Shown: in pieces, positions 34,828 to 37,806 of the stretch
How positions within the stretch are numbered: the stretch's first letter is position 1
Layout: each line of letters opens with the position of its first letter
NCBI GenBank assembly: GCA_003557865.1
Contig: PWNK01000086.1
Span: forward strand, 1 to 37,808
Direction of reading: 5' to 3'
DNA length: 37,808 nucleotides
From: Desulfonatronovibrio sp.
GTDB taxonomy: Bacteria > Desulfobacterota > Desulfovibrionia > Desulfovibrionales > Desulfonatronovibrionaceae
The notes under the pieces: model-generated
The model's database searches: none
Seen by the model: only the letters and a program-made list of their open reading frames with translations
Told to the model about the DNA's origin: nothing
Position numbers and translations under genes: made by a program

Positions 34828-36663
34828 CTAGTAATCCTCAAACATTTCCTGGTCCTGGGCCAGGCCTTCCTGGATTTTAACCAGTTCATCAAAACGGATA
34901 TCCGCTCCGAGGATCCCCACTATCTCGTCATCACCGGTAAATATTGGAGTAGAAGCTGTCAAGCAAAGCTTGCCGGTAAAAAACGACTTGTAAAAATCAG
35001 TTATATGCAGCTTGCCGGTCTTAACCGGACGAATAAACCATTCCCTGTCAGAAAGGTCTGCATTTTCCGGAACTGAGCGGTACTTTGATATGTCACCAAT
35101 ATCGCTGACATTCCACGTCAAGAGGCATCCATTTATATCCGTGACGTACATGTACTGGATAAAAGGATACTCGCTCAAGAACTCATTTAATGCAAGGTCA
35201 ATATCATCCTTATCCATGTTGCTCATAGCCGGGTTTGTAGCCAGCTCTATCATGATGTTCTTAAGCACCTTGTGGGCGAGATCCTTAAGCTGATCAAAGG
35301 ATGACATGAAGAGATCCGGGATATATCTGCGCACAAGTTTCTGCATCTCTTCATGGGAATAGTTGGTGGTCCTTCCCCTGGCATATGAACCCATGATCTT
35401 GTCGTATATCTTTTTCACAGCCGGATGCCGCTTGTCCACCTTCTGCTCATCAGCCAGATTCAGGTTGTGGTTGATCCAGTAGGCGACACCAGCGCGTCCG
35501 GTTTTGTCAGTGACGATGATGGGCACATCCCTGTGCAGAATCTGCCTTGTGTTGAAAATATTATATATCTCCTCATTTTTCAAAAGGCCGTCCACGTGGA
35601 TACCCGCACTTGTGGCGTTGAAGTCCCTGCCGGCAAATGGATAATTGGGAGGAATCTCCACCTTGAGATGTTTCTCAAAATACCTGGCCAGTTCAGTTAT
35701 GGCCGGGGTGTAGGCTGCGTCGTCATCACCGGTAAGAGAAATATACTCAATAACCAGGGCTTCCAGGGGAGCGTTTCCTGTTCGCTCCCCAAATCCGAAC
35801 AGGGTCGAGTTCACGGCTGAACAGCCATATATCCAGGCGGTGGTGGCATTCACAAACCCCTTGTGAAAATCGTTATGACCGTGCCATTCAAGCCACTCAC
35901 TTGGGACCTGTGCTTCATCGGTAAAGGTGCGCACGATTTTGGGCACACTTCTGGGCAGGGAGGCTCCTGGATAAGGAACCCCGTAACCCATGGTGTCACA
36001 AAGCCTGATTTTAACCGGAAGACCTTTCTGGCGGGAAAGATCCATCATTTTCTGAGCCAGGGGAACGCAGAAGCCGTATATGTCCGCCCTGGTTATATCC
36101 TCAAAGTGGCACCTGGGTGTTATCCCCCAGTCCAGAGCTGCTTCAACCAGTTTAAGGTAGTCATCTCCAGCCTGCCTGCGCGATTTTCCCAGCTTGAGGA
36201 AAATATGGTAATCAGAAACAGAGGTCAGCATCCCGGTTTCCTTGAGTCCCATTTCTTTAACCAGCTTCAGGTCTTCCTTGTTGGCCCTGATCCACCCGGT
36301 GATCTCCGGGTACTTGAATCCCTTTTCAAGACACGCCTGAACAGCCCTCTGATCCTTGTCCGAATACAGAAAAAATTCACTCTGACGGATAAGGCCTGAA
36401 TGCCCCCCCAGCTTATGCAGAAGTTCAAATATATCAGATATCTGCCGGGCTGTAAAAGGAGGCCTTGCCTGCTGTCCGTCCCGAAAAGTTGTGTCCGTAA
36501 TGAATATTTTCTCCGGAGGTCTGGGCATTATAAAGGAATCGTCAAAAGCCACCCTGCAGATGTTGTTATAAGGATAAAGCTCCCTCAGCAGCTCGGGCTT
36601 TTGAACATCCTGGAAATCATATTTCTGCCTGGCAGGGTTTTTATGAAACAGTGAATCAAACAT
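34828..36663 (-). CDS. Re-citrate synthase-like (HMGL/isopropylmalate synthase family) with C-terminal Cache/PDC-like domain
   Basis: ITDTTFRDGQQARPPFTARQISDIFELLHKLGG...IRQSEFFLYSDKD...PEITGWIRANKED...HFEDITRADIYGF...CDTMGYGVPYPGASLPRSVP...EWHGHNDFHKG...GFGERTGNAPLEA. C-term: YMYVTDINGCLLTWNVSD...DREWFIRPVKTGKLHITDFYKSFFTGKLCLTASTPIFTGDDEIVGILGADIRFDEL. Confidence 0.88.
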   Translation of the reverse strand: MFDSLFHKNPARQKYDFQDVQKPELLRELYPYNNICRVAFDDSFIMPRPPEKIFITDTTFRDGQQARPPFTARQISDIFELLHKLGGHSGLIRQSEFFLYSDKDQRAVQACLEKGFKYPEITGWIRANKEDLKLVKEMGLKETGMLTSVSDYHIFLKLGKSRRQAGDDYLKLVEAALDWGITPRCHFEDITRADIYGFCVPLAQKMMDLSRQKGLPVKIRLCDTMGYGVPYPGASLPRSVPKIVRTFTDEAQVPSEWLEWHGHNDFHKGFVNATTAWIYGCSAVNSTLFGFGERTGNAPLEALVIEYISLTGDDDAAYTPAITELARYFEKHLKVEIPPNYPFAGRDFNATSAGIHVDGLLKNEEIYNIFNTRQILHRDVPIIVTDKTGRAGVAYWINHNLNLADEQKVDKRHPAVKKIYDKIMGSYARGRTTNYSHEEMQKLVRRYIPDLFMSSFDQLKDLAHKVLKNIMIELATNPAMSNMDKDDIDLALNEFLSEYPFIQYMYVTDINGCLLTWNVSDIGDISKYRSVPENADLSDREWFIRPVKTGKLHITDFYKSFFTGKLCLTASTPIFTGDDEIVGILGADIRFDELVKIQEGLAQDQEMFEDY

Positions 36664-36809: not shown

Positions 36810-37310
36810 TTAAAAACCCCAGCCCAGTTCAGCTCTGATGTCAGCAGGAAGGTTGGCTGCATGGGGCGGAAGGTATGGACGCGGGGCTCCGGCCATTCTT
36901 CGGCTTTCCTTGAGCTGGTCAAGCTGGTATGCTCTGGGGATCTGGAAAACCTGATTGGGAAAAATCAGATCCGGGTTGTTGATCTGATCACGATTAGCCT
37001 TGAAAATCAAAGGCCACATAAACGGATCATTATAGATCTGCTGATACTCCGCAATCCACCACAGGCACTCTCCCTTGACCACGGTATGTGACGTGGGCAG
37101 CTGAGCGTAGTTACGCTCATAAATATCTCTGGCGGTAGGCTGAGGCGGAGCTGTGGGCTGAGGTGCAGGGGTCGGGGTAATTATGGGGGCAGGCTGCTCA
37201 ACCGCAACCTCCGGCTTTGGCGGCTCAGGCTCAGCAGTAACCGGTTTTTTGGCGCAGCCAAAGCTGAGCACGGCCAGCAATAGCACCGAAAACATAATAA
37301 AACGTTTCAT
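36810..37310 (-). CDS. LysM-domain lipoprotein
   Basis: MKRFIMFSVLLLAVLSFGCAKKP lipobox, Pro-rich linker, HTVVKGECLWWIAEYQQIYNDPFMWPLIFKANRDQINNPDLIFPNQVFQIP. ATG 37310 (RBS ggaagg) preferred over the track start 37397. Confidence 0.88.
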   Translation of the reverse strand: MKRFIMFSVLLLAVLSFGCAKKPVTAEPEPPKPEVAVEQPAPIITPTPAPQPTAPPQPTARDIYERNYAQLPTSHTVVKGECLWWIAEYQQIYNDPFMWPLIFKANRDQINNPDLIFPNQVFQIPRAYQLDQLKESRRMAGAPRPYLPPHAANLPADIRAELGWGF

Positions 37311-37380
37311 TCCTTCCTCCCTTGATAAGTTTAAAAAAATGTGGTCATATTTTAATACATCAAACTTAAAGACATTTTTT

Positions 37381-37806
37381 TTAAAAGTCAAGCTCAACTC
37401 TTTGGCGGGCCAACTCCGCCTCCTTCAGCCACCCGCCCTGTTCCAGACTCAGGGCGGCCAGACGATAAAGCTTGGCTGGATCATGCGTATAAATGCCCTG
37501 AATGAGCTCATCATAGGAAGACTTGAAAACATCCCTGACCAGATTTTCCCGGGCGAAGAAAAATCTGGCCAGGTGCGGATTGTCCTCATGAGCGGGAAGG
37601 AAGATGACAAACAGTCTCCTGCAGTGGAAAAGGATAAATCTGATCCTGGAAACCTCACGCTCAATGCTCTCGCAGGTTTGCTGCAGGACTGTTAACAGTT
37701 CCTTGCCGATGAGCATTTCTTCAGGAGAAAGACTGGTTTCACTGTGCATCATCTCAAACCAGGGCCGATAGTTTTCCTGCTGGTAAGAATCCTCCCTGAG
37801 CTTCAT
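37381..37806 (-). CDS. Hypothetical protein, 141 aa (5' end at window edge, may extend)
   Basis: Open frame upstream of and co-oriented with the LysM gene. Confidence 0.55.
   Translation of the reverse strand: MKLREDSYQQENYRPWFEMMHSETSLSPEEMLIGKELLTVLQQTCESIEREVSRIRFILFHCRRLFVIFLPAHEDNPHLARFFFARENLVRDVFKSSYDELIQGIYTHDPAKLYRLAALSLEQGGWLKEAELARQRVELDF

Follow-up and report, generated by a model that had tools for sequence, protein, structure and literature searches.

We analysed a protein of 611 amino acids encoded, from an ATG start, on the minus strand at positions 34828-36663 of a contig of Desulfonatronovibrio sp. (PWNK01000086.1, assembly GCA_003557865.1); the window is the whole stretch of DNA analysed, 37,808 nucleotides. 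A first-pass annotation, made by a model from the sequence, had described here an enzyme of the Re-citrate synthase type fused to a C-terminal Cache domain, and the open reading frame as well as the motifs it quoted are present exactly as claimed. Re-citrate synthase forms citrate from acetyl-CoA and oxaloacetate by means of a DRE-TIM barrel, and is unrelated to the ordinary Si-citrate synthase. The parts of the gene are as follows (all on the minus strand).

34828..36663, minus strand: Re-citrate synthase-like enzyme with C-terminal Cache domain (611 amino acids, 70.0 kDa); full length kept in relatives
35749..36507, minus strand: HMGL-like (DRE-TIM barrel) catalytic domain, residues 53-305; PF00682, 106 bits; AlphaFold (AF2) model and Foldseek matches to homocitrate, isopropylmalate and citramalate synthases
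36469..36492, minus strand: TTFRDGQQ motif, residues 58-65; R61 and D62 invariant in 56 fused relatives
35869..35889, minus strand: EWHGHND motif, residues 259-265 (H261, H263); invariant in 56 fused relatives
35596..35598, minus strand: H356 in AGIHVDG; invariant in fused relatives
35401..35610, minus strand: homocitrate synthase post-HMGL subdomain (HCS_D2-like), residues 352-421; PF22617, 22.2 bits, under the cut-off of 27
35221..35301, minus strand: linker helix into the Cache domain, residues 455-481; AF2 helices at 455-475 and 478-481
34870..35256, minus strand: predicted cytosolic Cache/PDC domain, residues 470-598; PF02743 and PF22673 over cut-off; AF2 model; Foldseek matches to KinD, Tlp3 and PctA/B/C
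35035..35046, minus strand: Cache pocket R540-x-W542-F543; R in 55/56, W in 56/56 and F in 56/56 relatives; aligned to PctA R126, W128 and Y129
34990..34992, minus strand: Cache pocket Y558 (PctA Y144); Y or F in 54/56 relatives
34900..34902, minus strand: Cache pocket D588 (PctA D173, contact of the ligand amino group); D in 56/56 relatives

The two halves of the protein are recognised by Pfam independently of each other, i.e. an HMGL-like match at residues 53-305 (106 bits against a cut-off of 29) is followed by a dCache_1 match at residues 470-598 (48.9 bits, cut-off 45) and an MCP-like_PDC_1 match at residues 523-594 (42.1 bits, cut-off 27), and the AF2 model of the whole protein has a mean predicted local distance difference test score (pLDDT) of 88.9. 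No transmembrane segment was found in the 611 residues, the 19-residue hydropathy reaching a maximum of only 0.87, so the Cache domain is predicted to be cytosolic, as the first-pass annotation had proposed, and a membrane-anchored sensor was ruled out. This departs from the usual form of Cache domains, which are extracytoplasmic, flanked by transmembrane segments and coupled to a signalling output; here the domain is coupled to an enzyme. A fusion produced by misassembly or frameshift was ruled out by the full-length homologues present in most relatives (about 40/60). The enzyme occurs in 147 of 296 genomes sampled across the phylum, and in 141 of these 147 its open frame spans 599 amino acids or more; the architecture, taken at first for an unusual one, is thus widespread.

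The catalytic half is most likely a Re-citrate synthase, as judged from its motifs and the genomes in which it is found. The residue pattern of DRE-TIM catalytic domains (R-D, HxH and a catalytic histidine) is complete, and the putative catalytic residues R61, D62, H261, H263, N297 and H356 do not vary across the 56 fused relatives. We assign the roles of R61/D62 and H261/H263 from what is known of the family, taking H261 and H263 to be probable metal ligands, and H356 presumably occupies the catalytic-base position, by homology to LeuA. The solved structures nearest to the barrel of the AF2 model are homocitrate synthases (Foldseek, E 4e-25). In NCBIfam the barrel falls in the isopropylmalate/homocitrate/citramalate synthase group, with nifV as its best match (140 bits against a cut-off of 463), and all equivalog scores (tests for LeuA, CimA, NifV and LysS) are far under their cut-offs. 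A clear LeuA and a clear citramalate synthase (CimA) are encoded by separate genes elsewhere in the same genome.

Further evidence comes from the rest of the genome. No match to Si-citrate synthase (PF00285) was found in this assembly, which is 87% complete, while genes of the aconitase family and of the isocitrate/isopropylmalate dehydrogenase family (Iso_dh) are present, and the fusion enzyme is the only candidate for a citrate-making enzyme that can be detected in the organism. It is the absence of Si-citrate synthase, the separate LeuA and CimA and the presence of aconitase and isocitrate dehydrogenase that speak for the Re-citrate synthase role. The two kinds of enzyme avoid each other across the 296 genomes: 119 contain only the Re enzyme, 127 only the Si enzyme, 28 both and 22 neither (p=5e-32, a value that is overstated since the genomes are related and not independent). 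The same holds for the 61 genomes of the order, where the fusion alone is found in 38, Si-citrate synthase alone in 14, both in 3 and neither in 6 (Fisher p=8e-7). The enzyme therefore appears to stand in for Si-citrate synthase in genomes that possess aconitase and isocitrate dehydrogenase. A comparison of 92 gene neighbourhoods gives a similar picture. An aconitase and/or isocitrate dehydrogenase gene follows the Re-citrate synthase gene in Syntrophorhabdales, some Desulfovibrio, Nitrospirota and Bacillota, and in anammox-type Planctomycetota (L135, L136, L141, L142, L146, L150, L153) the gene of a Cache-less enzyme precedes sucC and, in most cases, sucD, neighbours that tie this form to the genes of the tricarboxylic acid cycle. 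This pattern is the one expected of an enzyme that takes the place of citrate synthase. The barrel assignment of the first-pass annotation is thus borne out by Pfam, AF2 and Foldseek, and the role by genomic evidence as well.

The C-terminal part is a Cache domain according to Pfam, AF2 and Foldseek alike; structure prediction, which had been suggested as the way to disprove this assignment, returned a PDC/Cache fold. Modelled alone with 56 sequences, the domain has a pLDDT of 91 and a predicted template modelling score (pTM) of 0.85. Its top match in the PDB is the histidine kinase sensor KinD (E 2e-8), including a pyruvate-bound entry and R131A mutants, followed by Tlp3 (branched-chain amino acids), PctC (gamma-aminobutyric acid), PctA (Met), PctB (Gln) and DctB (succinate), and in a sequence comparison Tlp3, PctA and KinD came closest among solved chains. 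The model is a single domain and only positions 32-159 of the 240 in the dCache_1 profile are matched, i.e. it is not a double Cache. The closest non-fused kin found are C-terminal Cache domains of chemoreceptors from related genomes, located after the signalling part, which means that a Cache domain placed behind its output domain exists independently of the Re-citrate synthase. In the Cache tree the domains of the enzyme and those of the chemoreceptors are split with a support of 99. Some of these chemoreceptors, from genomes of the same order, end in the Cache domain after MCPsignal and are without any transmembrane segment (L174:55-1698, L176:843-2372, L177:2357-3859, L178:406-1956, L179:391-1830), others of the same kind have N-terminal transmembrane helices (L175, L180-L185); the former have the core amino-acid motif and are candidates for chemoreceptors with a cytosolic Cache domain.

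It is interesting to compare the pocket of this domain with the motif of amino-acid sensors, [YFWL]x4[RK]xW[WYF]..[YF]..D (PMC11237719; also PMC10104139), in which the first aromatic residue, Arg and Trp hold the carboxyl group of the ligand, and the second aromatic residue and Asp its amino group (PMC11237719). The window protein reads A-R-W-F-Y-D, i.e. five of the six positions agree and A535 stands where the motif has an aromatic residue, so the six-position dCache_1AA motif is incomplete. The same state prevails among 130 fused relatives: 102 lack only the first aromatic, 22 (mostly of the Desulfovibrio type) have the full motif and 6 have neither, which makes 124/130 with at least five positions. 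By comparison, the five-position core appeared in 48 of 26600 composition-preserving shuffles. R540 aligns with R126 of PctA and R131 of KinD (the KinD numbering being deduced from the chain). W542, F543, S560, L566 and D588 are invariant in 56 relatives, in a domain whose columns average 48-62% identity, the figure varying with the alignment and with the columns counted. Because the pocket positions are conserved within an otherwise variable domain, a retained ligand can be argued for.

A scan of GTDB contigs found the Cache domain on the enzyme in nearly all Desulfobacterota sampled, and the fused form also in loci labelled Nitrospirota, Spirochaetota, Omnitrophota, Lentisphaerota, Fibrobacterota and UBP15; most loci come from metagenome-assembled genomes, and binning errors may underlie single-phylum assignments, in particular that of a locus labelled Betaproteobacteria. 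Relatives that end right after the catalytic part occur in Planctomycetota (anammox), Bacillota, Chloroflexota and Elusimicrobiota. On the tree the presence or absence of the domain changes 4 times (3 in a thinned set), so a single clean gain is not supported. A tree that forces the Cache-less enzymes into one group is marginally rejected (approximately unbiased test, p-AU 0.041), the root being unsure. The pairing of enzyme and Cache domain is ancient and widespread in anaerobes. Plasmids, searched for relatives without the Cache domain, yielded only distant Deinococcus proteins (36-39%) and LeuA matches. One of the former, on plasmid pDrdI of Deinococcus wulumuqiensis (L186:1492-2790, 36% identity, annotated as pyruvate carboxyltransferase), is divergent from, and adjoins, a citrate/2-methylcitrate synthase gene.

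With somewhat more conviction than doubt, we read the protein as the Re-citrate synthase of the organism, which would be regulated by its cytosolic C-terminal Cache domain. The domains, predicted folds, absence of transmembrane segments, conserved residues, spread, mutual exclusion with Si-citrate synthase and neighbourhoods are direct results, from which the reaction, the binding and identity of a ligand and the regulation are inferred. We propose that a small carboxylate (an alpha-amino acid being the likeliest) would sit between R540/W542 on its carboxyl side and Y558/D588 on its amino side, that its binding would alter the seating of the Cache domain on the barrel, or its dimerisation with it, and that this altered contact would turn citrate formation up or down. 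A first hypothesis would be feedback inhibition by an amino acid of the glutamate family, natural because citrate starts the synthesis of 2-oxoglutarate and glutamate here, or by aspartate, natural because it shares oxaloacetate. End-product feedback of this sort is familiar from LeuA, inhibited by leucine, and homocitrate synthase, inhibited by lysine, and several such synthases exert it through C-terminal domains. The Cache domain might thus play the part of an ACT, RAM or LeuA_dimer domain, with a sensor of the chemoreceptor type. Whether it is an allosteric receptor for amino acids (or small carboxylates) that gates the entry into citrate in Desulfobacterota and several other anaerobic phyla seems to us an even question. 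The first-pass annotation had likewise suggested allosteric control through this domain, which the residues make plausible, and had listed acetate, pyruvate, 2-oxoglutarate and amino acids as effectors; the sequence does not show the ligand to be among these.

Several observations weigh against this reading. Orthology to the biochemically proven Re-citrate synthases of Clostridium kluyveri and Syntrophus aciditrophicus is itself inferred, and 28 of the 147 genomes with the enzyme in the phylum sample also hold a Si-citrate synthase. The core motif is missing from six relatives, among them the two 72.9-kDa proteins of family f35, and the chemoreceptor kin have the same core, so part of the pocket conservation is inheritance. 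With A535 the window protein is, on its residues, no canonical amino-acid sensor, and since the closest fold, KinD, was crystallised with pyruvate, the ligand may be a non-amino carboxylate. In that case the domain would sense pyruvate, acetate, citrate, 2-oxoglutarate or lactate and report the supply of carbon instead of an amino-acid end product. We consider this a tentative possibility, favoured by the KinD arginine (R131, mutated to alanine in solved entries) that aligns with R540 and by the absence of the first aromatic residue in the window protein and most relatives, but at odds with the invariance of D588, the amino-group contact of amino-acid sensors, and with the relatives that keep the full motif. 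The main rival is a purely structural role, in which the enzyme is a Re-citrate synthase but the Cache domain a ligand-free module captured from a receptor and kept to hold the oligomer together. Cache/PDC domains often dimerise, homologues in Planctomycetota and Bacillota do without the domain and the tree permits repeated loss; however, few columns of this otherwise variable domain are as conserved as those of the ligand contacts, and a purely structural domain would have no need to keep the pocket motif in almost all relatives. This role is therefore disfavoured, and we regard it as rather unlikely.

Two further alternatives concern the barrel. It shares a superfamily with isopropylmalate, citramalate and homocitrate synthases, and homocitrate synthases lead both its NCBIfam and its Foldseek matches, but the NCBIfam cut-offs and the separate LeuA and CimA genes led us to reject these identities, and the exclusion with Si-citrate synthase and the aconitase and isocitrate dehydrogenase neighbours also speak against them; we judge such an activity quite improbable. 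It is more improbable still that the protein is a signalling device whose Cache domain reports the level of a metabolite while the barrel is secondary: the chemoreceptor kinship of the domain would fit, but there is no signalling output domain, the catalytic residues are invariant and no other candidate for a citrate synthase was found.

A few features around the gene and its relatives complete the picture. Directly upstream of the enzyme gene lies the following neighbour, given for context.

36810..37397, minus strand: LysM-type lipoprotein

The same kind of lipoprotein precedes the enzyme in five other sampled distant loci (L077, L083, L084, L100, L110). In L077 and L084, which belong to family f35, the enzyme has a C-terminal extension past the Cache domain (72.9 kDa) and the second pocket aromatic is lost; the sensor of these two enzymes may be silent or changed. 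Several genomes with f35 also contain Si-citrate synthase. The order hisS-aspS-Re-citrate synthase is kept in much of Desulfobacterota (L072-L112, L138, L155), with aspS in about 40 and hisS in about 24 of the 92 loci, possibly reflecting a link between aspartate and oxaloacetate. In one genome of the same genus the fused enzyme is present twice, each copy 88% identical to the window protein (G002:C79:4158-5990 and G002:C94:4911-6740), which may reflect contamination (5% reported).

A Re-citrate synthase is of a kind already known; the Cache-bearing architecture is the new part, and our searches of the literature available to us turned up no account of a citrate synthase that carries a Cache domain, nor of Re-citrate synthase regulation through one. 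Here a Cache domain forms part of a metabolic enzyme of the cytosol, and it has been kept across several phyla with a largely intact pocket. Should it bind a ligand, it would reveal how anaerobes without Si-citrate synthase control the entry of carbon to 2-oxoglutarate and glutamate; enzyme allostery would be added to the roles of the Cache superfamily, and a soluble, assayable Cache signalling system would be at hand.

The enzymes of C. kluyveri and S. aciditrophicus probably belong to the same DRE-TIM branch, to judge by size, motifs and genomic role, while the Cache-less forms of Bacillota and Planctomycetota stop about 150 residues earlier than the fused enzyme. The S. aciditrophicus enzyme is said to have been purified as a tetramer of ~73-kDa subunits, and Cache-bearing relatives calculate to 71.2-72.9 kDa; going by size, a Cache-bearing form has probably been assayed already without the domain being noted. 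LeuA and the Sulfolobus homocitrate synthase with its RAM domain likewise join a DRE-TIM barrel to a C-terminal domain for amino-acid end-product control, but their regulatory folds are LeuA_dimer or RAM, not Cache. Among Cache proteins, the dCache_1AA sensors PctA, PctB, PctC and Tlp3 share the fold and the R-x-W-[FY] / Y / D pocket positions; they are, however, double, extracytoplasmic and drive chemotaxis, whereas the domain of the enzyme is single, cytosolic and, in the window, without the first aromatic residue. The KinD sensor of B. subtilis, the closest solved fold, has the conserved Arg and a D-x-Y-x-S-x-x-T-G stretch in common with the enzyme, but it is the extracellular part of a histidine kinase and is without the Trp. 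A 2016 survey regards Cache domains as the main sensors that prokaryotes have outside the cell; their families are principally extracellular, Diacid_rec and YkuI_C excepted, and have signal transduction outputs apart from SMP_2 (PMC4822843). YkuI_C is likewise an intracellular C-terminal Cache family, but on an EAL signalling protein (PMC4822843), and its model is matched by the chemoreceptor kin only, not by the enzyme. Those of the chemoreceptors without transmembrane segments (L174, L176-L179) have the same core motif in a Cache domain that follows the signalling domain, and differ from the enzyme in that their output is chemotaxis.
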